Below the pieces are notes generated by a model that made no database searches, had not been told where the DNA came from, and saw only the letters and a program-made list of their open reading frames with translations. Positions 1-14,100 of a DNA stretch of 64,000 nucleotides are shown here, one piece after another. The stretch comes from Geobacteraceae bacterium (GTDB lineage Bacteria; Desulfobacterota; Desulfuromonadia; Geobacterales; Pseudopelobacteraceae): the NCBI GenBank assembly GCA_025355965.1, contig JANXYR010000038.1, forward strand, positions 1-64,000. The letters run 5' to 3'. Position 1 is the first letter of the stretch. Each line of letters starts with the position of its first letter. The translations under genes were made by a program, and so were the position numbers.

Positions 1-1
1 A

Positions 2-271
2 CTGCTCCTGGGGGTGGGAATCGGGCTGTTCAGCGTCCTATCCCAGCCGGCCAGCACGGCGCTGCTGGTGGAAGAGGGGGCACGGCACGGCATGGGGGTG
101 ACGGTCGGGACTTTTAATTCCGTGCTGAATCTGGGCTTCGTCTCTGGGCCGCTTCTGGGGGCAGGTGTGCAAAATACACTCGGGCTGACGGCGGTTTTCT
201 ATGCAGCAGGGATATTGGGGCTTGGGGCGATGGCGCTGTTTGTGGTGAATGGACGTAGCCCGGAGCATTAA
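2..271 (+). CDS. MFS transporter, C-terminal fragment (cut by window start)
   Basis: The reading frame is open from the first bases and stops at TAA 269-271, so only about the last 89 residues are present. They form two very hydrophobic, Gly/Ala-rich segments separated by a short loop with the N-S-V-L-N-L-G-F pattern, followed by a brief polar tail. This is the look of the last two helices of a 12-helix major facilitator permease, probably drug or sugar efflux type. The substrate cannot be told from this piece. The 3' end overlaps the HipA-like remnant in another frame, which suggests rearrangement just behind this gene. Confidence 0.7.
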   Translation: MLLGVGIGLFSVLSQPASTALLVEEGARHGMGVTVGTFNSVLNLGFVSGPLLGAGVQNTLGLTAVFYAAGILGLGAMALFVVNGRSPEH

Positions 272-392
272 GGATTTTGTCTCCCCCGAATGGTTGCAAA
301 AGGCCCGTGAAGAATTCTTTGTTTCGCTGGTGCTGTCCACTATGGTGCAAAACGGTGACGGACATCTGAAAAATTTTGGGGTCTTACACAGT
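255..392 (+). pseudogene. Remnant of a HipA-family Ser/Thr kinase toxin
   Basis: About 45 codons read R-S-I-K-D-F, then E-E-F-F-V-S-L-V-L-S, then N-G-D-G-H-L-K-N-F-G-V-L. The last string matches the HipA_C kinase core, where the Asp of D-G-H-x-K-N is catalytic and the Asn binds metal. Everything before and after is missing: an intact HipA is about 410-440 residues. The frame runs on to 686, but past about 392 it only reads antisense through the Rh channel gene. No HipB-type antitoxin is visible. I read it as a deletion scar of a hipBA-like locus. It overlaps the MFS stop on one side and reaches the channel stop codon on the other. Confidence 0.6.
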
Positions 393-1598
393 ATCAGTTG
401 CCGCTATGAGTGGCTGAACTTCGCTCTGCCCGGATTCTTCACCTTCGAACTCTTCATCGTCGAGATAAGGCTCCGACCTCCTGCCCAGTATCGCAATCAC
501 TTTGCCGCAAATCAGGCCGCTGCACGCTGCAATTGCTGCAGTTATCAGTATCGCCGTCAATTGTGCAACAACGTTAATACCGCTGACGACAAACAGAGCT
601 GCAACTCCACCAAGTATCCCTGGCAGGCCGTGCAAATAGAGCACACCGCAGGTATCAACCTTTTTAGTCATCTCAGTCAGGCGTGATTGAATGATTGCAA
701 AACCGAAGGTGGAGACAATTCCAGCCATTATGCCGATAGCAAAGGCGGTGCCGGGAACAGCCACATCACAGGTTGAACCGATGGCCACGCCTCCTGCCAG
801 CGTCGCATTAGCGATATCCGCCGCCGAAATTTTGCCCCTCAGCCTGATTGAAGCAAAATAGGTGGCGATCGTTGATCCGCAAAGTGCCAAAATAACATTT
901 ACAGCTGTCCTGGGTACATCCGACGGTGCAACCAACGCCGCACAAAAGCTCGGCCAAAACACCCACAACACCATGCTTCCAAGCAGAGAGTATCTATCGC
1001 TGGTATCATCGCACTCAATCGGAGTTTCATACTCCTTCTGCGTTGTCATCGAGGCCGCCACCGCCAAACCAAAGATGGCGCCAAAAGCATGAATAACAAT
1101 TGATCCGCCGGTATCTACAACCTTACCACTGATCAACCCCAATCCGCCATTGAGCACAACCCATTCATTCAAGGCATAGAACGGGACAAACAAAATCCCC
1201 AACAGCATGTACTGGCCCATTTTCAGACGCCCCAGGACGGCTCCGGCGCAGATTAGCAAACTGGCGGCAGCAAACTCTGCCAGAATCAGCTTGTCTATTA
1301 TCCCCTCTGAACTGCCAACGCCGAGTAAATTCTCTTTAAGAAAATACAACGGGATCGAAACACTTACCAACAGATACGTTGCTGTCAACGCCGAGCGACC
1401 ATACTTTTTAACAAAAACCATCAGGAAGCCGAAACCTAACAACAACATGGCCATAATATGAATCGCGCGTTCGTATTTTTGTACATCACTCAGTGCGGCA
1501 AGAGTGGTGCCCACATTTTCAGCCGCACAGACCGGTCCGCTTACTGCACACGCCAGCAGAGCAAATATAAGTATATTTTTTATGCAGATTTTCATCAT
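384..1598 (-). CDS. Rh-type (Rhesus family) ammonia/CO2 channel
   Basis: This is a 404-residue Amt/Rh superfamily membrane protein with an N-terminal signal-like segment (about residues 8-26, A-A-E after it) and roughly 11 further hydrophobic helices. Several stretches are Rh-like rather than AmtB-like: D-T-G-G-S-I-V-I-H-A-F-G-A near 162-174, L-W-V-F-W-P-S-F near 211-218, N-A-T-L-A-G-G-V-A near 264-272, and D-T-C-G-V-L-Y-L-H-G near 315-324. His170 and His323 are the expected pore twin histidines. No glnK lies beside it, unlike most amtB loci. ATG 1598 and ATG 1595 are adjacent; the AAAGGAG box is better spaced for the second. It should pass NH3, and possibly CO2, across the inner membrane. 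Confidence 0.85.
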   Translation of the reverse strand: MMKICIKNILIFALLACAVSGPVCAAENVGTTLAALSDVQKYERAIHIMAMLLLGFGFLMVFVKKYGRSALTATYLLVSVSIPLYFLKENLLGVGSSEGIIDKLILAEFAAASLLICAGAVLGRLKMGQYMLLGILFVPFYALNEWVVLNGGLGLISGKVVDTGGSIVIHAFGAIFGLAVAASMTTQKEYETPIECDDTSDRYSLLGSMVLWVFWPSFCAALVAPSDVPRTAVNVILALCGSTIATYFASIRLRGKISAADIANATLAGGVAIGSTCDVAVPGTAFAIGIMAGIVSTFGFAIIQSRLTEMTKKVDTCGVLYLHGLPGILGGVAALFVVSGINVVAQLTAILITAAIAACSGLICGKVIAILGRRSEPYLDDEEFEGEESGQSEVQPLIAATDTV

Positions 1599-1645
1599 GG
1601 CTCCTTTAAATCAACTGATATCATTTCATAGCGCCCACAAATTAT

Positions 1646-1659
1646 GCACATTTTGGGCC
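1646..1659 (-). promoter_or_regulatory. Candidate sigma-54 (-24/-12) promoter for the Rh channel
   Basis: On the minus strand the sequence reads AGGCCC-N5-GTGCA, with GG (1659-1658) and GC (1647-1646) exactly ten bases apart, as in -24/-12 elements. It lies about 50 bp upstream of the channel start. A dyad with a GCATATGC core at about 1684-1699 sits a further 25-40 bp upstream and could bind an activator. Ammonia channel genes are often under RpoN/NtrC control, which fits, but the -24 box departs from TGGCAC at two positions. Confidence 0.4.
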
Positions 1660-2005
1660 TATAAAATCCATATGCCTAATTATGTTGCGCATATGCAACG
1701 AAATTAGGCTGTTCGCCGACAAATCACTGAAAATGGATAATTAAATCAGTAGATAAGTCTTGTCAATGCGGGGAAATGTGAGTAATTCAGATGTGTAAAT
1801 TGAGTAAAATATAAACTCTGATTTTATAAAAATGGAGATCCGTATTAATTAGAAAATGAGATGCCCCCCCCCAATGACTATTTCCTGATTTCGGTACTTC
1901 AAAATCATAATATTACACTCTAAAGAAACTATATTCAGGTGGGATATCTAGTGGTATTTTGACATGAGCTGACAGTCTATATTGAACTATATCGGTTGTT
2001 TAGAG
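1660..2005. other. AT-rich intergenic region without a recognisable gene
   Basis: This stretch separates the divergent Rh-channel and degP genes. It is AT-rich, holds the dyad GTTGC-N6-GCAAC at about 1684-1699 and a run of nine or ten C near 1865, and has no open frame with a ribosome site or a recognisable product. I see no tRNA, no terminator and no clear repeat. It is probably regulatory DNA for the two flanking genes, possibly with a decayed remnant. Confidence 0.5.
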
Positions 2006-2033
2006 TTGACTTTTGCAATCAGGCTATTATATT
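2006..2033 (+). promoter_or_regulatory. Candidate sigma-70 promoter for the Do-type protease
   Basis: TTGACT (2006-2011), a 16-base spacer and TATATT (2028-2033) lie 95 bases before the protease ATG. The run of T after the -10 box and the AT-rich surroundings are compatible with an active promoter. No heat-shock (sigma-32) consensus was seen. Confidence 0.55.
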
Positions 2034-2128
2034 TTTTTCTTTAAAAAGGACAGTGGCAACATCGTGGTAAAGCAACGATTCGTCTCTCTCCATTAAACCA
2101 AAACACTAGGATTCAGGGAGGTCAGAAC

Positions 2129-3544
2129 ATGTCAAAAAATGTAGTTTTAGCAATGCGTCTTCTGGTAGCAGGTCTTATTTTCTCTCTTTCCACCCCGTCA
2201 TTGTCGACAGCCAGAACCGCCAGTCCCGATTTTGTTGAACTGGCAAAAAAACTCAAGCCGACCGTTGTCAACATTCGTACCGCCAAGGTGATTAAGCAGA
2301 GACCGCACCAGCAGCACCCCCGCATGCAATCGCCCTTTGACAATTTTTTCGAAGATTTTTTCGGCCAATTCAATGGCCAGATGCCTCAGCAGCGACCGCG
2401 CCGTGAACAGAGTCTCGGAACTGGGTTCATCATCAGCACAGACGGCTACATACTCACTAATAATCATGTAGTCAGCGGAGCAGACGAGGTCATGGTCAAG
2501 CTCTCCGATGGACGCGAAATAAAGGGAGAGATCAAGGGAGCAGATGAAAAGCTGGACCTGGCATTAATCAAGGTTAGTGATAAGGAAGCTTTTCATGCTG
2601 TCGATCTAGGAGACAGCGACATACTGGATGTAGGTGAGTGGGTAATGGCCATCGGTAATCCCTTCGGCCTGTCTCAGACGGTTACTGCCGGCATTGTCAG
2701 CGCCAAAGGACGTGTCATTGGCAACGGCCCCTATGATGACTTCATTCAGACAGATGCATCCATTAATCCGGGCAATTCGGGCGGGCCCCTTTTCAACGCT
2801 GACGGCAAGGTGATCGGCATCAACACCGCCATTATCGCCGGTGGTCAGGGAATCGGCTTTGCCATCCCGGTCAATATGGCCAAGAGTATCATTTCGCAAC
2901 TGCGCGATACCGGCAAGGTGACTCGCGGTTATCTGGGGATCCGCTTCCAACCCTTGACTGCTGACCTGGCAAAGTCTTTCGGAATGAAATCGGACAAGGG
3001 CACCCTGATCGCCAATGTTGAAAAGGATACCCCGGCAGATAAGGCTGGACTGAAAGCCGGTGATGTTATCACTGAGTATGACGGCAAGACGATTAATGAA
3101 AGTAACGAGCTGCCTCGATATGTTGCTGTAACACCAATCGACAAGAAGGTTCCGGTCGTAGTTTTCCGCGACGGTAAAAAACTGGAGTTTTCCGTCATAA
3201 TTGCCAAGTTGAAGGGTGACAATTCCGTATCAGCCACCAATGGTGAGAACGAAAGTGATAAACTGGGAATTACTGTCCAGCAACTGACAAGTGAACTGGC
3301 TTCACATCTGAATATCAAGGACAGCAAGGGCGGGCTGGTTATTACCGAAGTGAAACAGGGATCGTCCGCAGAGGAGGCCGGTACTGTCTCTGGAAGCATT
3401 ATTATCGAGATTAATGGACAGCGACCAGAATCTCTGGAAAAGTATGTCTCAGTCGTCTCCGGCGTTAAAAAGGGAGACATCGTACGCCTGCTGCTCAAAC
3501 GTCCCGACGGCAGCATACATTATGTAGCCTTGAAATCTGAATAA
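2129..3544 (+). CDS. degP: Periplasmic serine endoprotease, DegP/DegQ (Do) family
   Basis: This 471-residue protein has a signal peptide (residues 1 to about 29, A-R-T-A junction), a trypsin-like domain and two PDZ domains (about 265-350 and 375-470). The triad is visible as His113 (T-N-N-H-V-V), Asp143 (L-D-L-A-L-I) and Ser217 (N-P-G-N-S-G-G-P). A Gln/Phe/Arg-rich LA-type loop fills residues 57-95. It should degrade or chaperone misfolded envelope proteins in the periplasm. An AGGGAGGT box seven bases before the ATG fixes the start. It stands alone, with a promoter before it and a hairpin behind. Length and two PDZ domains fit DegP/DegQ rather than DegS; which of the two cannot be settled. 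Confidence 0.93.
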   Translation: MSKNVVLAMRLLVAGLIFSLSTPSLSTARTASPDFVELAKKLKPTVVNIRTAKVIKQRPHQQHPRMQSPFDNFFEDFFGQFNGQMPQQRPRREQSLGTGFIISTDGYILTNNHVVSGADEVMVKLSDGREIKGEIKGADEKLDLALIKVSDKEAFHAVDLGDSDILDVGEWVMAIGNPFGLSQTVTAGIVSAKGRVIGNGPYDDFIQTDASINPGNSGGPLFNADGKVIGINTAIIAGGQGIGFAIPVNMAKSIISQLRDTGKVTRGYLGIRFQPLTADLAKSFGMKSDKGTLIANVEKDTPADKAGLKAGDVITEYDGKTINESNELPRYVAVTPIDKKVPVVVFRDGKKLEFSVIIAKLKGDNSVSATNGENESDKLGITVQQLTSELASHLNIKDSKGGLVITEVKQGSSAEEAGTVSGSIIIEINGQRPESLEKYVSVVSGVKKGDIVRLLLKRPDGSIHYVALKSE

Positions 3545-3552
3545 TCCTGCAC

Positions 3553-3581
3553 CGCAGGGGCGAGCTCATGTCGCCCCTGCG
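3553..3581. other. Strong hairpin behind degP, no U-tract
   Basis: CGCAGGGGCGA (3553-3563) pairs perfectly with TCGCCCCTGCG (3571-3581) around a 7-base loop, eight bases after the degP stop. Neither strand has a run of T next to the stem, so it is not a classical intrinsic terminator. It may protect the 3' end of the mRNA or assist factor-dependent termination between the convergent degP and ppx genes. Confidence 0.7.
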
Positions 3582-3661
3582 TCACCCAACCCACGAAATC
3601 CACATATCCGTTTTTGACTCTTCTAAAGTAGAGTTTTATTACACACTATTAAGTATGTTAT

Positions 3662-5188
3662 CTATGTAGCAAAAACAACTGAGCAGCCAAAGGCCTTTTC
3701 AAACAGGTCTTTCTTAGCGTTAGCGCCAAAAATCTCGACCGAAACATCTTCCGTTGCCGTCAGGTGGAGTTTTATTGTTGTGCCACCAAACAGGCAGGAA
3801 ACATTCTGCACCAAACCATTCCTGCGACGATCAAGACCATCAGCCAGGCGAAGAATACCGCCCAGGCGTGCCACTGTTACTTGGTCATTTTCCTTCAAGC
3901 TCTGGAAGGCGTCATGTTTTCGTTTTGGTAGCGATTTACGATGGTAGCGCGCAATCTGCGCTATTAATTCTCTTTCGCGGGGAGTGAAACCAAATAGCTC
4001 GGCGTGACGGATGAGATGATATGAGTGTTTGTGATGGCTACCGTAGCTTATAAAATATCCGCTGTCATGGAGGATGGAGGCAGCTTCAAGAAGCTTTCTC
4101 TCTGATGTCTTTAACTCGAAGGGAAGTGCCAGGGCGTCAAAAATCGAGAGGGCCATGCCAGCTACGTGTGTAGCATGCTGCTCGTCAACGTGACAAGAGA
4201 CGGCAAATCCATTAACAGAATCCTTCCACGTCGGGGGAGCATTGTTTCCGGCTGCCAGCCCAAGTTTCTTCATCGCCCTGATAAGAAGCCCCTCGCGAAT
4301 GCCACGTTCATTGACCAGCACTCGATTGGCATCGAAAAAACGCATAAGTTCATCGACTAAAACCACACCCGCTACAATGATGTCAGCCCGGTCCTGATTG
4401 AGCCCAGGTATAGTCCTGCGCCCTTTAACATCCTTATGGGAAAGCATAGCAAGCAGGTGAACAACTTCTGCACGAAGCACCTCAGACCCATGTATGGAGA
4501 CGTAGTTGTCCTTGCGCATCTGCATGGCCATGCAGCCGATCGCTGTCATCGTTCCACCCGAACCGATAAATGAATCAACAGAAATTCTTTTTCCGGTGAA
4601 GGTGCGTTTGAGGCTTTCTCTTATATGGCGTTGTAATTTACGCAGTTCGTCCTCAGTTGTCGGGTCGCTCTTCAAAAAACGGTCGGTCATGACAACCGCA
4701 CCAAGGTTGAGGGAATAAAATTCTTCTACATGGTTTCCATACGCGGTAACAATCTCGACACTCCCCCCGCCGATATCGACCATGGCATAGCGTTTCCCGT
4801 ACATATCAAAGTTAGCCAGAGCGGAAGCTGCTGTCAGTTCGGCTTCTTCTTCGCCGGAAATAACCTTAATCTCGTGTCCCAGCTCTTTAGAAAGCATCGC
4901 AACCAGTTCCTTACCGTTGGTTGCGCTTCGAATTGCACTCGTGGCAACCGCCTCAACTGCTCCAACATTAAGTCCGGACACAAGTTTTTGAAATCGTTGA
5001 ATAGCTTCAAGCGCGCGGTTCGAGGCTTCATCAGAGATCACTCCGGTCATGGCCAGCTTCTCCCCCAAACGCACAGTTGACTTCTCATCATCAATAATCT
5101 TGTACGTGCCCTCTTTGGAGGCCTCTGCAATGATGCAGCGAATGGAGTTGGTACCAATATCAATGGCGGCGATGCGCTGTTTTTTCAT
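3662..5188 (-). CDS. ppx: Exopolyphosphatase / pppGpp phosphohydrolase (Ppx/GppA) with HD domain
   Basis: A 508-residue Ppx/GppA protein. The ASKHA fold has A-I-D-I-G-T-N-S-I near residues 8-16, A-T-S-A-I-R-S, S-G-E-E-E-A-E-L with the likely catalytic Glu, and the phosphate loop V-D-I-G-G-G-S. The C-terminal half (about 320-500) is an HD-type domain with I-L-H-D-S-G-Y. It should release phosphate from the ends of polyphosphate chains and may also convert pppGpp to ppGpp; sequence alone does not separate these. It is the last gene of the leftward run sixA-CHAD-ppx, eight bases behind the CHAD gene, with GAGGG before the ATG. Its CHAD neighbour supports a role in polyphosphate metabolism. Confidence 0.88.
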   Translation of the reverse strand: MKKQRIAAIDIGTNSIRCIIAEASKEGTYKIIDDEKSTVRLGEKLAMTGVISDEASNRALEAIQRFQKLVSGLNVGAVEAVATSAIRSATNGKELVAMLSKELGHEIKVISGEEEAELTAASALANFDMYGKRYAMVDIGGGSVEIVTAYGNHVEEFYSLNLGAVVMTDRFLKSDPTTEDELRKLQRHIRESLKRTFTGKRISVDSFIGSGGTMTAIGCMAMQMRKDNYVSIHGSEVLRAEVVHLLAMLSHKDVKGRRTIPGLNQDRADIIVAGVVLVDELMRFFDANRVLVNERGIREGLLIRAMKKLGLAAGNNAPPTWKDSVNGFAVSCHVDEQHATHVAGMALSIFDALALPFELKTSERKLLEAASILHDSGYFISYGSHHKHSYHLIRHAELFGFTPRERELIAQIARYHRKSLPKRKHDAFQSLKENDQVTVARLGGILRLADGLDRRRNGLVQNVSCLFGGTTIKLHLTATEDVSVEIFGANAKKDLFEKAFGCSVVFAT

Positions 5189-5196
5189 GTGCCCTC

Positions 5197-6069
5197 TTAC
5201 ATCAAGAATGTATAAACCAGTGGTTTCCGCTCGATAAGCTTTGTAAATTTACCCAGCAAGAGAGCATCCTCTTCCATTAGGATCGACTTGAAATGTTCTT
5301 GATCTTTGGAGGGAAGTTCCATGTTACTGATCAGTACCCTGAACACGGTAATGTCGTTCATTTGCCCCAGAAGGGACTGATATTCCTTTAGAAGTTCCTG
5401 AATATGAGTGTAATCACGATCCAGCACCTGTGAGATAATTTCAAAAAAATAGCGCCATTTTTTGATGGCAATACGCAGAGCGTGACGTGCTGAGCGACGT
5501 TCAGGTTCAGTAGAACCTGTCAGCAACCGGTGTATCGGCAGGTACTGCCTTATTGAAACATCAGAGAAATAGGCCAGGAGAGAGATGCCGTTACGCTTTT
5601 TGATGGAATTCTCGTTCAATCCCTCAACCATTTTACGTACTATCCGGTCAAGGTGACGGTGGTCGAAGGCAATAAGCGCCTTATCTATCCGCTTCAATTC
5701 CTTGGCACGCAGTTCAGTAAGATTGAAAAAAAGCTTTTTATCGGCTGAAACATCAGCTCTGACTCGCGACTGAAAGAAAATCAACGCTTCGTCTATATTG
5801 CGCAAACCACCCAATATTTGTGTCAGTTTACGGATACTTTTTCTTAGCTCTGTTATTGAGCCTTTTGGTACAGAGGGATAAAACAGTTCCAAAACAGCCC
5901 TGAAACGGCGCGATGCAACTCTCAGGTCATGTATGTCATTCTGGTCGGAGGTTTTGATGGCAACACGCCTCAATCGAAGCAACTCTTCCCATTGAGCAAA
6001 GAATACCCCCCTGGATTGTTCCATAATGGTTTCCGGGTCAGGCCATAACAGTGCAGATTTTGTTATCAT
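5197..6069 (-). CDS. CHAD domain protein (polyphosphate-associated)
   Basis: A 290-residue, strongly charged helical protein with the features of CHAD domains: conserved H-D-L-R-V-A-S-R-R-F-R near residues 47-57, then I-R-K-L-T-Q-I-L-G-G-L-R-N-I-D-E-A near 83-99, and R-S-A-R-H-A-L-R-I-A-I-K-K-W-R-Y near 190-206. The basic helices form the positive groove that binds polyphosphate in characterised members. It lies between sixA and ppx with 8-9 base gaps, so it is co-transcribed. A polyphosphate-binding partner of the downstream exopolyphosphatase is the simplest reading. No CYTH domain is attached, unlike in the ygiF-type fusions. Confidence 0.85.
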   Translation of the reverse strand: MITKSALLWPDPETIMEQSRGVFFAQWEELLRLRRVAIKTSDQNDIHDLRVASRRFRAVLELFYPSVPKGSITELRKSIRKLTQILGGLRNIDEALIFFQSRVRADVSADKKLFFNLTELRAKELKRIDKALIAFDHRHLDRIVRKMVEGLNENSIKKRNGISLLAYFSDVSIRQYLPIHRLLTGSTEPERRSARHALRIAIKKWRYFFEIISQVLDRDYTHIQELLKEYQSLLGQMNDITVFRVLISNMELPSKDQEHFKSILMEEDALLLGKFTKLIERKPLVYTFLM

Positions 6070-6078
6070 CAGTTCAAG

Positions 6079-6594
6079 CTACCGCTTAGGAAATGCTTTT
6101 TTCAGAGACGTAGTTCTTTTCTTGCCAGGGGTCAGATGCCAAAGAAAACTGGCCGAACTGTAGCTCTTGTCGGGATCATGTTTTAAAGTCACACAGGCCC
6201 CTTTTTTTAGGGAGACCTGACCATCCTCACAGCCAAGCAAAGCAGTAACCAATGTGCCAAGCTGCGGTTCGTGGCCAACCAACATCACACGCTTGGCATC
6301 CTTGCACCCCTTCAGATGGTCAATTAATTCACTAATGTCAGCTCCCGGAAGAAGAAGTCCACTTGTTTCAACCACATTTTTGCGACACGCTTTTTCAGCT
6401 ATTATTTCAGCCGTCTGTACCGTACGAGTCAGTGGACTGGATATTATCAACCTTGGTTTGGGGCCGGACTTGGCAATCAAAGAACTCGTTTTTTTAGCCG
6501 ACATCCTTCCGTTTTTGGTCAGAAAACGCCACTCGTCCCGCAAGATGCCGCTTCCCTCTACCGCTTCAGCGTGCCGCATAATGTATAAAATCAT
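6079..6594 (-). CDS. sixA: Phosphohistidine phosphatase SixA-like
   Basis: From ATG 6594 the product is 171 residues with the histidine-phosphatase signature M-R-H-A-E-A (His8), S-S-P-L-T-R-T-V-Q-T-A near 60-70, and the second histidine in M-L-V-G-H-E-P-Q-L-G near 103-112. Length matches SixA, which removes phosphate from histidine in phosphorelay or PTS proteins. The frame stays open to 6705, but the GGAGG box five bases before ATG 6594 and a promoter at 6628-6655 place the start there. It heads the leftward operon with the CHAD and ppx genes. An extended C-terminal basic tail (K-K-R-T-T-S-L-K-K) is the only odd feature. Confidence 0.85.
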   Translation of the reverse strand: MILYIMRHAEAVEGSGILRDEWRFLTKNGRMSAKKTSSLIAKSGPKPRLIISSPLTRTVQTAEIIAEKACRKNVVETSGLLLPGADISELIDHLKGCKDAKRVMLVGHEPQLGTLVTALLGCEDGQVSLKKGACVTLKHDPDKSYSSASFLWHLTPGKKRTTSLKKAFPKR

Positions 6595-6627
6595 GGTACC
6601 CTCCAGGTTGATGGTAATCCGAGTACG

Positions 6628-6655
6628 AGTATAGACGTCATTAAGTATTTTGCAA
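6628..6655 (-). promoter_or_regulatory. Candidate sigma-70 promoter of sixA-CHAD-ppx
   Basis: On the minus strand TTGCAA (6655-6650), a 16-base spacer and TATACT (6633-6628) give a good match. Transcription would start near 6621, leaving a leader of about 27 bases that contains the GGAGG ribosome site of sixA. This supports the internal start codon at 6594 over the longer open frame. Confidence 0.6.
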
Positions 6656-7206
6656 TACATGTAGCAAACATTTACACAATCGTAACAATGAGCTGTTAAA
6701 TACATTTCGCTTGATTTTACAGGTACGCTTTCCCGGTAACTATTGCTGATTACATAGGCATTGCGGAGTGGTGAAAGTTTTGAGAATTTATTGGGAGGTT
6801 GAAGCTGGGGGGTGAGTAAGTACTATTGGAGGAGGAGAATAACTAAAAAAGCAAACATGCATACAATCGCGTAGAAGAATTCAACTTTTGAATTATACAC
6901 CCGAAAAAAAAAATTAAACAGACTGTTTTTTTGCTTTGGGAGTGTTATATTTGGATCAAGAAGTAGGAAGCAAATCTGGTTCGGAGGTTTTGAATTATGG
7001 AAGATACTCCGCCTGAGTGTGACCGAATGTAGGAGTCTGTTGCGCTCCGATGCACCTGAATAAGTGTGGTACAGTTTAAAAGGGGGGCGATTATTATCGC
7101 AGATATTCCGCCTGAAAGCAAAAGACATAGTTTGGTAACATTACTCCGAGGGTAGGTAGGATCGGAATACTCCTTGAAAATGGAATCGAATAAGTGAATG
7201 TAAGTG
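6656..7206. other. 550-base region without a convincing gene; possible non-coding RNA
   Basis: No frame here has a ribosome site and a plausible protein; two overlapping minus-strand frames of about 100 codons have no recognisable content. The right half has structure: a 15-base element at 7002-7016 recurs at 7101-7115 with one mismatch (AGATAYTCCGCCTGA), a small perfect hairpin GCGAT-N4-ATCGC (7087-7100) abuts the second copy, and CGGAG/CTCCG can pair across 6982-7011. A strong intrinsic terminator at 7207-7240 points rightward, although nothing coding precedes it. The combination suggests a short structured transcript of unknown family. It could also be a decayed gene. Confidence 0.35.
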
Positions 7207-7240
7207 AAGCCCACCGAATTTTTTGGTGGGCTTTTCATTT
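7207..7240 (+). terminator. Intrinsic terminator upstream of nuoA
   Basis: AAGCCCACC (7207-7215) pairs with GGTGGGCTT (7225-7233) around a 9-base loop, followed by TTCATTT. Stem and tail make a good rightward rho-independent terminator. It ends about 55 bases before nuoA and cannot serve the leftward sixA operon, so either a short non-coding transcript ends here or it insulates nuoA. Confidence 0.75.
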
Positions 7241-7262
7241 GAAGTTTAATTACTTCTGTACT

Positions 7263-7290
7263 TTTACATGTTCCGTTCATCTGATATAGT
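7263..7290 (+). promoter_or_regulatory. Candidate promoter abutting the nuoA start
   Basis: TTTACA (7263-7268), a 16-base spacer and TATAGT (7285-7290). The expected transcription start, 6-8 bases past the -10 box, coincides with the nuoA ATG at 7297. No Shine-Dalgarno sequence lies between. If real, nuoA is translated from a leaderless or near-leaderless mRNA. Confidence 0.45.
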
Positions 7291-7296
7291 TGCGCA

Positions 7297-7686
7297 ATGA
7301 TTTCCCCTTCTTTTTATCACATTGCGATTTATTCGTTTGTTTCTGTGGTTCTGATCGGCGTGCTGTTGCTGGCTGCGTGGTGGTTGGGTGCCAAGCGCAC
7401 TTCAGCCGCCAAGCAGATGCCCTACGAATCAGGTGTTGCCCCCAGCGGTTCTGCTCGTCTTGCATGGCCGGTGCCATTTTATCTTGTTGCAATTTTTTTT
7501 ATTATTTTCGATGTCGAGGCAGCCTTCATCTTTACCTGGGCCGTAGCTTGGGATCTGTTGGGGATTGCCGGACTCGTTCAGATTACAGTTTTTATAACGA
7601 TCCTCTTCGCCGGACTCGTCTGGCTCTGGTTGAGGGGGGGGCTGGATTGGGGGCCTTCTCGTGAAGGGCGTACAAAGCGTGGATAA
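7297..7686 (+). CDS. nuoA: NADH-quinone oxidoreductase subunit A
   Basis: A 129-residue membrane subunit of complex I with three hydrophobic helices (about 8-30, 62-84, 90-112). Family hallmarks are present: the loop [12 protein letters not shown] and [17 protein letters not shown] at the start of helix 2, whose acidic residues matter for proton coupling near the quinone tunnel. The ATG has no visible ribosome site. The gene overlaps nuoBCD by up to 26 bases, so the two are co-translated. NuoA works only within the full complex, yet no further nuo genes follow nuoBCD here. Confidence 0.93.
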
Positions 7687-10051
7687 CGAAATACCACAGA
7701 ATGTTATCCTGACCCGCCTCGATGATATGATCAACTGGGGGCGGGCCAATTCGCTCTGGCCGATGTTCTTCGGTCTTTCCTGCTGCTTTGTAGAAATGAT
7801 GACCGCATTCACCTCGCACTATGATGTGTCGCGCTTCGGAGCAGAGGTTCTTCGCGGTACGCCGCGCGAAGCGGATTTGATGGTGATCGCCGGCACCCCG
7901 TTTGTCAAGATGGCCCCCTCGATTCTGCATCTCTACGAACAGATGGCCGAACCCCGTTGGGTGATGGCTATGGGGAGCTGTGCCAATTCAGGTGGTATGT
8001 ACGATGTTTACAGCGTAGTACAGGGGATCAATCAGATTCTACCGGTGGATGTGTACGTCCCTGGTTGCCCACCAAGACCCGAGGCTTTTTTACAGGGGCT
8101 GATGCTGCTTCAGGAGAAGATCAGAACCGGTGAACGACCGACACGGTCGGTACTTCACATGCAGGGAGGATGGCAGGGGACAACTGTACCGGTACTGGTA
8201 CCTGGTGAAACTAAGTCCAATGACACCCGTGGACCTGGCATGGAGTCGATCAGCATCCGTGGTTCGGCTGCTGGCCATCCTACTGCGTTTCACCCCCGCT
8301 CTGACGAGATTTGGCGTCCCCCTGCTCCGCATCATGACTTCCCTGATTTCGGTTTGCCGGAGGAGGTCGGGCAGCTATTTGAAGGCCGGGTTTCTGTTGA
8401 CTCCGCTGCAACAGATATGTTGACGCTGCTGGCTCCATCAGCTCTTGTTCCAGCAATAATGAAACATCTCAAATCCCGTTCCGGTCCATCATTCAAGCGT
8501 CTGGAGGATATCGCAGCCGTCGATGATTCATGCCGCCGGGAGCGGAGCAGTTACCAGGATTTCACCCTCAATTACCACCTGCTTTCCTTTGACCAGCCCG
8601 GTTATCTCCGCATAAAGACAGAGCTGAGCGGCGATTCACCTGAAATACCCTCCGTCACATCCGTATTCCCTGCCGCCAACTGGTACGAAAGAGAAGTGTA
8701 TGATATGTACGGCATCCGCTTCAGCGGCCACCCCAACCTGCGCAGGATTCTGATGCCGCACGACTGGGAAGGGCATCCACTAAGAAAGAGCCATCCCTTC
8801 CGCGCCACCGAAATGAAGCCATATACGCTTGAGGACGCCCGCAGTCACGCTCCCCTCCCAGCTTCAGAATTTTTCGAACGGGTCGATGAAGGGGAGATGA
8901 TTCTTAATCTGGGGCCACAACATCCAGGTACCCATGGCATTATTCGCTGCATCCTTAAGCTCGATGGCGAGGAGATCCGCGATATCGATTTCGACATCGG
9001 CTACCACCATCGCGGGGCAGAAAAAATTGCTGAACGGCAGCAGTGGAACCAGTTTATTCCATACACCGACCGTATAGATTATCTGTCGGGAGTACAAAAC
9101 AACCTGGCTTACGTCAACTCGGTCGAGCGGCTCTGCGGGATTGCTGTTCCGGAGCGCGCTATCTACATCCGAGTCATGCTGGCTGAACTGTTCCGCATCG
9201 CCAGCCATCTGGTCTGGCTCGGAACATTCGCGGCCGACATTGGGGCTATGACACCGGTTTTCTACACATTCACCGATCGGGAAAAGATTTTTGATATTGT
9301 TGAGATGATTACCGGCGGGAGGATGCACCCCGCTTGGTTCCGCATCGGCGGAGTCGCCGAAGATTTACCGGAGGGGTGGCAGGTGCCGGTACGCGCCCTG
9401 CTCGAATGGATGCCGCCGCGCTTGAAAGAGTATGAGCAGCTGATCAACGGCAACCCAATCTTTCGTGAGCGGCTGAAGGGCGTCGGTGTCATTTCGCTGC
9501 AGGATGCCCAGGAGTGGGGATTGTCAGGGCCCAATCTTAGGGCATGTGGATTTGAGTGGGATCTGCGACGTAAAATACCGTATAGCGGTTATGATCGTTT
9601 TGATTTTGAGGTACCAACCGCAGAAGGTGGTGACTGTTGGGCCCGCTATCAAGTACGCATGCTGGAAATCAGACAGTCACTCCGAATCGTTGAACAGGCT
9701 ATGCGCGAGATGCCGGAGGGACGTTTTATTACGGACGACTATCGTTATGTGCTCCCGCAGAAACGGGACGCGTTGCAGAACATTGAGTCACTGATCCACC
9801 ACTTCGTCAACAGCAGTCGCGGCATGTCACCTCCACGAGGAGAAAACTACAGTGCCATTGAGGCTCCCAAAGGCGAGAACGGTTACTTCGCCGTATCAGA
9901 GGGCCTTTCAATTCCGTATCGTCTCCGCATCAAGACCCCCAGTTTCCCGCACATCCAAGCTCTACCTATCATGAGTCGCGGCTGGCTGGTCGCCGATTTT
10001 CTGGCGATCCTCGGATCAGTAGATTTTGTATTGGCGGATCTGGATCGGTAA
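7661..10051 (+). CDS. nuoBCD: NADH-quinone oxidoreductase fused subunit B/C/D
   Basis: One 796-codon frame joins three peripheral-arm subunits of complex I. NuoB (about 1-165) keeps the four N2-cluster cysteines Cys41, Cys42, Cys107 and Cys136. A Pro/Gly-rich linker (about 170-230) leads to NuoC (about 236-395, with [11 protein letters not shown] and H-P-L-R-K-S-H-P). NuoD (about 410-796) has [12 protein letters not shown] at the quinone site and the usual D-F-V-L-A-D-L-D-R end. NuoCD fusions are common in enterobacteria; the triple fusion is known from few lineages including some Geobacteraceae. GTG 7661 opens the frame, but GTG 7679 (GAAGGG upstream) may be the true start. It ends six bases from a convergent regulator. 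Confidence 0.93.
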
Positions 10052-10057
10052 GTCAAT

Positions 10058-11140
10058 TCAGTGCTGTTCGCTCATTGATCTTTCGAAAATCCCGGCAATA
10101 TCGTCCTTGATTTCGTTAAATGCCGCTAGAATCGCCGGATCAAAATGTTCTGGTAATGTACGGCCATCGCCATTCAGGATAATGTCACAGGTTTTGGCGT
10201 GGTCAAAAGCCGGCTTGTATACCCGACTATTGCGCAAAGCATCATACTGGTCTACGAGCATAACTATCCGCCCCTCCAAAGGAATTCCCTCCCCCTTTAA
10301 ACCAGCAGGGTAACCGGTGCCATCCCAGTGTTCATGATGTGTGGCGGCAATAACTGCTCCCATCTTGAGCATCCTGTGTGAAGACCCTTTCAATATCCGC
10401 TCGCCAATTGTAGTGTGCAGCTTGATAGTCGCAAATTCCTCTGCCGTCAGAGCGCCCGGCTTGAGTAAAATAGAGTCCGGGATTCCTATCTTACCGACGT
10501 CATGCATTGCGCTGGCCACTGAGATATCGTCCACAAAGCTGTCATCCATGTTTAAATGGAGAGCCAGACTTCTGGCATACATGCCGACCCTCGAAATATG
10601 CAAACCGGTATCTTCATCCCGAAGCTCGGCAGCGGCTGTCAATCGTTCAATAATTTCCCGACTCATCTGGGTTATCTCTCCCAGAGCCGTATTGAGTTCA
10701 GCGGTTCTGGTCGCAACTGTGCGCTCCAATTCCACCTTGTAATTTTTTTCTATCTGGGTCAAACGTTTGAAATTGACCCCTTTTTCGACCGTGTGGACGA
10801 GTGACGGTGGCCGGTACGGCTTGATAATAAAATCAAACGCACCTTTTTGAATAGCCTTGACAGCCACATCCAGATCGGCATAAGCAGTCATCAGGACAAC
10901 CGGAGTTTCCTTGTCAAGAAAGCGAATCTTTTCGAGCAGTTCAAGGCCATCCATGATCGGCATATTGATGTCCGTTAGCACCAGATCAACCGGTTCCATA
11001 ACAAACTGCCTGACCGCTTCCTGACCGTTTGAAAAAGCACGTACTGAAAAGCCGAATTCTGTCAGCAGTGTCGTGACGCTCTCAAGAACAAAACGGTCGT
11101 CATCGACCACAAATATTTTACCGCCACCGGTATTATTCAT
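10058..11140 (-). CDS. Response regulator with HD-GYP output domain (c-di-GMP phosphodiesterase)
   Basis: Counted from ATG 11140 the protein has 360 residues. The receiver domain (about 8-125) has the acidic pair D-D-D, the phosphorylation site Asp57 in L-T-D-I-N-M-P and T-A-Y-A-D. A coiled linker follows, then an HD-GYP domain (about 160-345) with intact [10 protein letters not shown] and H-W-D-G-T-G-Y-P motifs, so it should hydrolyse c-di-GMP when phosphorylated. A longer frame begins at 11155, but ATG 11140 has a GAGGTG box and overlaps the kinase stop by eight bases. That overlap implies coupled translation and makes the upstream kinase its likely partner. Confidence 0.9.
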
Positions 11141-14100
11141 TATCCAGCACCTCACGGATTTTCATCAGCAACTCTTTTGGAGTAAATGGCTTGGACAGAT
11201 AGCTCATCTCCTCATCCAGCCCCCCCTGACTTATTACCACGTCCCTAGCATAACCACTGCAAAACAATATTCGCATATCCGGGTCAATCTTTCGGATAGC
11301 ATCATATACACAACGACCATTCATTTTTGGCATAATAACGTCGAGAATAACCAAGCTGATACGCCCGTTATGCTCACGAAATTTCTCCAGTGCTTCCTCA
11401 CCATCAACCACATCAATAACGGAATAGCCGAACTCTTCCAATATTTCCTTGCCAAACAAACGGGTCGTTTCATCGTCTTCAGCCAATAGGATATAGCCTC
11501 CCCCTTTGACATCCTCTACGTTCTCTTCAGCTTTTTCAACACTAACAACAGGGGCCAAATCCAGTAGCGGCAGATAAATCTGGAAAATTGTGCCTAGGCC
11601 AACGGTGCTGTGGCAGACAGTATATCCCTTGTGGTCCTTAATGATGCCGTAGACGATTGAAAGACCCAGACCGGTCCCCTTGCCAAACTCTTTGGTGGTA
11701 TAGAACGGCTCGAAGATATGCTTCACAACTTCTGCATTCATACCGACGCCACTGTCAGCAAAGGTCAGAAGGGCATACCTGCCCGGAGTGCCGAAGCCCC
11801 TGGCAAGAATGAAATCAGAATTGAGGGTAACGGCTTCGGTTTTAATGTTTATTGAACCACCGTGTGGCAGAGCATCACGGGCGTTGGTCGCGAGATTCAT
11901 CAGCACCTGTTCCATTTGACCGCTGTCCGCCATAATTGCTAATTCATTAGGATCAAGGTTTATTTCAAGATGGATGTCCTCGCTGATAAGCCGCAGCAGT
12001 AACTGATGGACACGGTTGATTATTTCATTTAGTTCAACAGCTACCGGGTTAGAGGCCTGTTTGCGGCTGAAAGCCAGCAACCCCTGGGTAAGTCTTGCAC
12101 CACGCTCTGCAGTAGCGGCAATCTGTTCGGCGTGCTTTTTCATGGGACTGTCGTCGGGAAGCTTGAGCTGCATGATACTGGCATAACCAACAATAGCCGT
12201 TAGAATATTATTGAAGTCATGGGCGATGCCGCCGGCTAACTGACCGATTGCATCCATTTTCTGTGCTTGCCGGAGCTGCCCCTCCAACTGTTTACGTTCG
12301 GTAATATCCTCTTTGATGGCAACAAAATGAGTAATGGCATAGCTGTTGTCCCTGATCGGTGCAATCATGGCCAATTCCCAATACAAATCACCATCCTTTT
12401 TGCGGTTGTGAAATTCACCGCGCCATTCACCACCTGCAAGAATGGTTTCCCACAACTGTTTGTATTCTTCTTTACTGGTTTCTCCAGTTTTAAGAAATTT
12501 TGGATTTTTACCGACTACTTCATCAAGAGTATAGCCGGTCAGCTTGGTAAAATGCGGGTTGACATACTCAATAGTACCTTTTGTATCGGTAATCACAATT
12601 GAAGCGGGGTTCTGTTCAACAGCCACCGAAAGTTTGCGCAGGTGTTCTTCGGCCTTTATCCTTTCGGCCAGCTCCCTTTGTGACTCATCATTAAGACGAG
12701 CATTTTCAAGAGCCAGAGATGCCAGTTCACCAAACTGAACTAGAAGCTCCAGCTGTTCATAGTTCAGCTGAACCCCTTCGTCAACAAAAGCAACGCCGAG
12801 AACTCCGACTATCTCATTTCCGGACTTAAGGGGCACACCAGCCATAGCCCTCAGTACATCCCGGTCTGAGTCTGGCAGGCGACCTTCCCAGCGGCTGTAA
12901 TCATCAATATTACACAGTTTCCCGGTACTCCAGATACGCCCGGCTATACCCTCTCCCGGCCTGATAGGATAGTGGTGAAGACGGTTATAAATACCGCTCT
13001 GAAATACCATCTCCATTTCTGTTCCAGCAGCATTTTTGAGATACACATAGCAATGTTCCGTACCGACAAGGCTACCGGCACGGACAACGAGAGTCTGCAC
13101 CAAACCGGCAACGTCCGATCTGCTGATCAACCCCAGGGTCGTTTCGTGCAGTGCATGCAGGTATTCGTTCTGGCGCTGGAGTTGTGCGTCAGCATATTCA
13201 TATCTGTCCAGATCACTTTCCAGCCTGTCCCGTTGAAGATCGCTTTCCCTGACAAGCTTATTAAATGCGCGCCCCAGAGTCGCTATTTCGTCTTCCCCAT
13301 ACACCGGGAATAATCGATCGTCACCCTTTTTGTCCTTCAATTTTTCTACGTGACCGGTAAGCTGGTTAATGGGGGACATAAGTCGTTTAAGATAGCGGCG
13401 CATGAACAAAAACATGGCCAACAGGAATAGTGGCAGGGAGATCATAAAGATATTTCTCACCCGGTTGACAGGCAGATAAGCTTCGGACAACGGCAAGTTA
13501 ACACCGATTATCCACTCTTTGGACTTCAGCCGTTTAAAGGTGGCCAAGGTTTCCAGGCCACGGGAATTAATGGTTTCTCCAGTTCCTTCAAAACCGTTTA
13601 TGGAACGATCCAGCAACTTGTTGGCACCGGGTGGAATATCCTGTTTCATGATCCGCTTATGATCCGGGTGAACAATCATTGTCCTGTTAGTGTCAAAGAG
13701 AAACATATAACCGGCCCGACCGATCTTGCGCTGGCTGAGCCCGCCCAAAAAGTTGGACTGCAGCAGATCTATACTGCCGCCAAGTATGACAATCACATTA
13801 CCGTTTGCATCCAGAATCGGTGCAGTCAGCATGATAGAGGGATGATGGTGAGATTGAGAAGAAATGTAGGGATCAGATATATATTTGGTTTTGGTAGCCA
13901 AGGTTTTTTTCATATAGTCCCGGGAGGAGACATCATTACCGGTGCGGGAAAGTCCCAATGGCAGTTCGGCAACTATATGCCCACCGGCGTCGAATAGAAA
14001 AACCCCATTATCAAAAAGCCAGGTGCTTTCTGCATGATCCATCAGGAATTCAAGAGCTTTCTGGGGGTCAGAAACAATTTGTGGGTTAATTTTACTGGCA

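Follow-up and report, generated by a model that had tools for sequence, protein, structure and literature searches.

An Rh50-type transporter gene found in addition to Amt genes in a Geobacteraceae genome, and its putative sigma-54-type control region

What does an Rh protein do in a bacterium that also owns AmtB? The question is raised by a gene near the start of one contig (C60) of a 3.35-Mb Geobacteraceae genome. The window analyzed here is the first 64,000 bases of that contig. It contains an uninterrupted ORF of 404 aa at positions 384 to 1598 on the minus strand, exactly where an earlier note on this DNA had placed it. The gene is real, intact, and of the Rh type. Because the window begins at the contig start, just 383 bases lie past the end of the gene. 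Its neighbors are the end of an MFS-like gene, a HipA-like remnant, and a degP-type gene.

The HipA-like C-terminal remnant is found at 249 to 385 on the plus strand, flanked by the MFS-like end on one side and by Rh on the other. It matched PF07804 with an E value of 1.8e-6 and 28.2 bits, slightly below the cut-off of 30.5. The spot looks like one of gene decay. No Rfam match was found in positions 1 to 12000. Farther along, positions 7661 to 10051 (plus strand) contain a 796-aa ORF that is a NuoB-C-D fusion; it joins three subunits of complex I (PF01058, PF00329, and PF00346, in that order).

Identity of the protein

The closest PDB sequences in a phmmer search were three from Nitrosomonas europaea Rh50 (NeRh50; PDB 3b9w, 3b9y, and 3bhs), which ranked first with 358 bits. 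They were followed by human RhAG (186 bits), RhCG (171 bits), and RhCE (65 bits). Amt proteins scored at most 35 bits, and Escherichia coli AmtB at most 33. The protein matches the Pfam family PF00909. It scored 106 bits with the curated Amt model of NCBIfam (TIGR00836), for which the cut-off is 343.

An AlphaFold2 model was built from 38 related proteins and had a mean pLDDT of 89.8. Its top match in Foldseek was NeRh50 (3b9w), with a TM score of 0.84 and 52% identity. VIA-align also placed 3b9w first, with a Z score of 57.5 and an rmsd of 1.7 over 358 residues at about 51% identity. The Z scores were 52.1 for RhAG, 51.0 for RhCG, and 45.2 for AmtB. The two human proteins belong to the same family but are eukaryotic and only about 33 to 34% identical to the window protein. 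Residues 2 to 26 of the model form a predicted N-terminal helix that is signal peptide-like. Residues 390 to 404 form an acidic, disordered tail with a pLDDT under 50.

The tree contained 66 proteins, 57 Rh and 9 Amt, after 25 Rh rows had been thinned beforehand from the 91 available. The split between Rh and Amt was supported 100/100. The window protein fell with the Rh proteins and outside the Amt rows. A place inside the AmtB clade, which the earlier note had named as counting against an Rh protein, was not found. The 14 rows labeled as Geobacteraceae type formed a single group against the Amt rows. The place of human RhAG is unsure because its branch is long. An Rh protein from a bin labeled "Nitrosomonadales" (L038) was placed within the Geobacteraceae Rh group; this may reflect transfer or a mis-binned contig.

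The PF00909 match and the weak TIGR00836 match could also be those of a divergent AmtB rather than an Rh protein. That reading is refuted by the TIGR00836 score, which lies below the cut-off, and by the preference for Rh in sequence, fold, and tree. We regard it as practically untenable. The view of the earlier note that this is an Rh protein and not an AmtB is borne out by phmmer, the alignment, the tree, Foldseek, and VIA-align.

Alignment to E. coli AmtB paired D160, F107, F215, H168, and H318 with D162, F109, F218, H170, and H323 of the window protein. These pore residues are the same in NeRh50 and were invariant over the 38 aligned proteins. The outer-site residues F103, W148, and S219 of AmtB are replaced by I105, V148, and L222. 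NeRh50 and RhAG carry I, V, and I at these positions. The window protein thus keeps the twin histidines and has lost the aromatic and serine residues of the S1 site, as an Rh protein does. The S1 site is reported to be absent from Rh50 (PMC10433425), and D160, S219, H168, and H318 of AmtB are treated in PMC7447429. The earlier note had used the twin histidines (170 and 323) as a mark of Rh. They are present and aligned with AmtB H168 and H318, but both Amt paralogs of this genome carry them too, so they do not mark Rh and were ruled out as a marker. Compared with the E. coli AmtB-GlnK system, the window protein shares the superfamily fold and the five matched pore residues but is only about 20% identical, has its S1-site residues replaced, and has no glnK partner gene.

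Amt genes, distribution, and neighborhood

The genome encodes three PF00909 proteins: the window Rh, AmtB (C74:57471-58718), and a second Amt (C85:61757-62905). A P-II gene (C74:56854-57171) lies directly before amtB, giving a glnK-amtB unit at C74:56854-58718. P-II genes were found on contigs C74, C81, and C19 and not on C60, the Rh contig. The earlier note was therefore right that no glnK lies beside the Rh gene; the check it suggested, for amtB-glnK in the genome, found such a unit elsewhere. A nifH gene above the family cut-off was also found.

Near-full Rh genes were found in 18 of the 58 related genomes surveyed (13/37 within the genus and 5/21 in the rest of the order). All 58 contain Amt genes, which score far above Rh on PF00909, so coexistence of Rh and Amt is general in these relatives. 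The Rh gene here is an extra beside Amt, as in all 18 Rh-bearing genomes. The presence of nifH does not distinguish the Rh-bearing genomes from the other relatives (54/58 above the cut-off). Bacterial Rh proteins had been called uncommon in the earlier note. This holds across the phylum, where 8 of 395 evenly sampled genomes gave an Rh match with an E value of 1e-30 or better (two as pieces only), but not among the close relatives of this organism.

A scan of species genomes recovered 95 Rh-encoding loci across many phyla, of which 80 were kept. It is not a census, because its patterns were drawn from the window protein alone. The highest identity to the window protein was 94% (L101), and the relatives there were Geobacteraceae-, Geobacter-, and Pelobacter-type genomes. 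Other phyla contain proteins about 70% identical to it. In a BLAST search with the GlnK of this genome, glnK was found near Rh in only one of the 80 loci (L052, Lentisphaerota). At that locus, Amt, glnK, and Rh are consecutive on the same strand (5066 to 9068). In one relative (L025; G043:C61, 1441 to 1941), a 91-residue Rh remnant continues a reading frame that begins like glycyl-tRNA synthetase alpha (PF02091, E value of 1.9e-4, below the cut-off). It may be a decayed Rh copy or an assembly join.

Matassi (2017) reported Rh50 in 34 of 3,853 prokaryote genomes and judged coexistence with Amt likely to be rare (PMC5209957). The Nitrosomonas genomes in that work have no Amt, whereas this genome has Rh, amtB-glnK, and a second amt. 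For Geobacter sp. M21, of the same order, the table there gives two AMT genes and a single Rh50. The presence of Rh in Geobacter was therefore already known; the available text of that paper does not treat the M21 promoter.

ORFs were clustered around Rh across the loci of the species-genome scan. No gene keeps its place beside Rh. The widest cluster of neighboring ORFs (9 loci) occurs at differing places on either side, and a conserved neighborhood was ruled out. Relatives of degP are never beside Rh in the remaining 12 Rh-bearing genomes of the genus, insofar as these draft assemblies reveal it; G011 has them at a distance of about 7 kb, and elsewhere they occur on separate contigs. The Rh gene seems to move alone, which fits the horizontal transfer argued by Matassi (PMC5209957).

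Such a gene might be of little fixed use and kept by chance, with regulation that is inherited but unimportant. Its patchy presence in the genus, the lack of a shared neighborhood (including degP, within the limits of draft contigs), the remnant in G043, and the similar proteins in other phyla fit this idea. The intact ORFs, the invariant pore residues, and a promoter conserved above background point to use instead. We consider a gene kept by chance improbable.

The region upstream of the Rh gene

A sigma-54-type -24/-12 promoter element, AGGCCCAAAATGTGCA, is found at 1645 to 1660 on the minus strand, based on motif match and conservation. Its GG and GC dinucleotides are correctly spaced, and its first base differs from the TGGC consensus. 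The published G. sulfurreducens sigma-54 consensus is TTGGCACGGTTTTTGCT (PMC2725144). The sequence TTTACACATCTGAATTAC occurs in the genome at one exact place and at one with 3 mismatches.

We compared 19 upstream regions: the window, the Rh loci of 16 relatives (L008 to L023), and two loci from the genome scan (L030 and L038). The set leaves out L024 (gene start missing), L025 (remnant), repeat loci, and L040 and more distant loci. The strict sigma-54 motif, TGGC-N8-TGCW, occurred in the 200 bp before the gene in 9 of the 19 regions, which are related by descent and not independent, compared with 0.24 expected from dinucleotide shuffles. The same dependence applies to the other motif counts in these regions. 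NGGC-N8-TGCW was found in 11/19 regions, compared with 8/236 control regions. The motif is missing in L011, L013, L015, L030, L023, and L038 and is not clean in L012 and L020. The strict motif was found before Rh in 0 of 63 more distant loci (L040 to L106, with L060 and L101 left out). Mean pairwise identity was 0.70 in the element and 0.27 in the stretch 60 to 150 bp upstream, anchored on the element. Nine of the 11 promoter loci entered this comparison; L008 and L018, which nearly duplicate others, were omitted.

Two further sites lie upstream of the promoter on the minus strand. The near one, CGCAACATAATTAGGCA, is at 1673 to 1689, and the far one, AGCCTAATTTCGTTGCA, is at 1694 to 1710, 21 bp from the first. 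Both are TGC-N11-GCA-like, each with a single departing base at its outer end. The TGC-N11-GCA pattern resembles the enterobacterial NtrC site. A 36-nt palindrome at 1674 to 1709 was considered as a lone operator and rejected; it was absent from 20 other upstream regions, and the tandem pair that it overlaps is conserved instead.

A sigma-54 motif was found upstream in 12 of 31 amtB loci (L004 and L109 to L138), and TGC-N11-GCA occurred in the 200 bp before the motif in 7 of these 12. A symmetric matrix was built from the seven amtB upstream sites, with no Rh data in training. At L004, the sigma-54 motif (486) is separated from glnK-amtB by a 253-aa ORF (647 to 1408), which has no Pfam match above the cut-off and is probably in the same operon.

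The matrix was scanned for two sites 20 to 22 bp apart, a range chosen on the same data after single-site hits had been seen. The pair scored above all 284 controls in 17 of the 19 Rh regions (12.3 to 27.2, with a control maximum of 11.6). The controls were regions upstream of mechanical ORFs of at least 120 aa, with Rh upstream regions excluded; some are spurious and some are overlapping stretches. The smallest possible shuffle value was reached in 16/19 regions. Spacing of 21 bp gave a mean score of 14.1, compared with 7.5 or less at every other spacing from 14 to 35. The window pair scored 15.7, above the control maximum, but is weak; both of its sites are degenerate, with no strong single site. 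The matrix also scores high inside coding sequence, and single hits therefore mean little. A search for the pair plus promoter at 2 mismatches was swamped by chance matches.

The pair starts 49 to 51 bp before the sigma-54 motif in 10 of the 11 loci that have the motif. The other (L022) has its best pair elsewhere and one single site at the usual place. The pair is present in L012 and L020 without a clean promoter motif, and L023 and L038 have neither. Another leader is common to four loci (L011, L013, L015, and L030); it has no sigma-54 motif but shows a pair-like signal with 22 bp spacing.

The same site type was found at other nitrogen genes of this genome, none of them in the training set. 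At amt2, sites lie 101 and 82 bp before TGGCCGCTTTCTTGCT. At the glnB-type P-II gene (C81), weaker sites lie 132 and 101 bp before the sigma-54 motif. At nifH, one site lies 89 bp before it. The pair is 29 to 51 bp before the -24 motif at Rh, compared with 82 to 146 bp at the other nitrogen genes. It is thus nearer the promoter and may repress.

An inverted repeat, GAGT-N9-ACTC, is found at 1802 to 1818 on the minus strand and is a possible distal enhancer, based on conservation. It was exact in 7/19 Rh upstream regions and 0/236 controls; the looser GWGT-N9-ACWC was found in 11/19 and 1/236. The 64-kb window contains one match, with 0.45 expected. The box lies roughly 147 to 161 bp before the Rh promoter and was not seen in amtB upstream regions. 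As a regulon pattern, box plus promoter was set aside: it had one match in this genome, before Rh, and 6 of the 44 places listed over the 58 genomes were upstream of Rh. Because these sequences were also the source of the pattern, this is a specificity check only.

Proposed role

The site type shared with glnK-amtB, amt2, the glnB-type gene, and nifH ties Rh to nitrogen control. It suggests that the Rh gene may belong to the nitrogen control system of the cell. We consider it somewhat probable that this stand-alone Rh50-type transporter is a second, ungated ammonium path under sigma-54/NtrC-type control and is switched by nitrogen status. As expected from the family, the protein would form a trimer in the membrane; ammonium would lose a proton, and NH3 would cross the hydrophobic pore by H170 and H323. 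Its affinity for ammonium is probably lower than that of AmtB because the outer-site residues are replaced. Gating by GlnK is unlikely because the gene has no glnK partner. Transcription is probably by sigma-54 RNA polymerase. The NtrC-type regulator that serves glnK-amtB, amt2, glnB, and nifH probably serves Rh too, and we infer both this regulator and the direction of flux. The sites fairly likely activate rather than repress. NeRh50 carries out electrogenic ammonium transport and rescues mep-less yeast (PMC7447429).

The earlier note had proposed that the protein may handle CO2 or the release of NH3 instead of scavenging ammonium in starvation. This is unsupported, given the site type of nitrogen genes in the control region. 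A CO2 channel is suggested by analogy only: a CO2 pocket was proposed from a crystal of NeRh50, and Chlamydomonas Rh1 was proposed to act on CO2 (PMC10433425). The NeRh50 knockout had no CO2-dependent growth effect (PMC10433425), the sites upstream of Rh are of the nitrogen type, and no family among the ORFs clustered around Rh keeps its place beside the gene. Nothing found in this analysis speaks for CO2, and we consider such a channel very improbable.

A release role keeps some standing because the sites are unusually near the promoter and could repress. Rh might be an overflow or exchange channel used in nitrogen plenty. Another enhancer-binding protein would act at GAGT-N9-ACTC, and the nitrogen regulator pair would shut the promoter in starvation. 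The fixed place of the pair near the promoter and the separate conserved distal box, which amtB upstream regions do not show, would fit this channel. The same site type, however, accompanies presumed activation at glnK-amtB, amt2, glnB, and nifH; amtB of Geomonas rises under N2 fixation (PMC10746287); and there is no direct sign of repression. We regard the overflow channel as possible but unlikely. If true, it would rescue the release idea of the earlier note. Somewhat more doubtful is a one-gene Rh cassette of the Geobacterales, with a GAGT-N9-ACTC-driven sigma-54 promoter shut by the tandem pair, in which AmtB-GlnK import in starvation would alternate with ungated Rh exchange in plenty.

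Besides the coexisting Amt genes, the sigma-54-type promoter sets this gene apart from N. europaea Rh50. The arrangement of promoter and sites was not found in literature on Rh50 with NtrC or with Geobacter, and the available text of a Kuenenia paper does not address Rh50 expression (PMC7438415). The control region appears to be new, and the kind of Rh protein was already reported from the group. The promoter bears on whether Rh would serve the cell when nitrogen is scarce or when it is plentiful. The coexistence of Rh with Amt, which Matassi judged likely to be rare, is the rule in these relatives.
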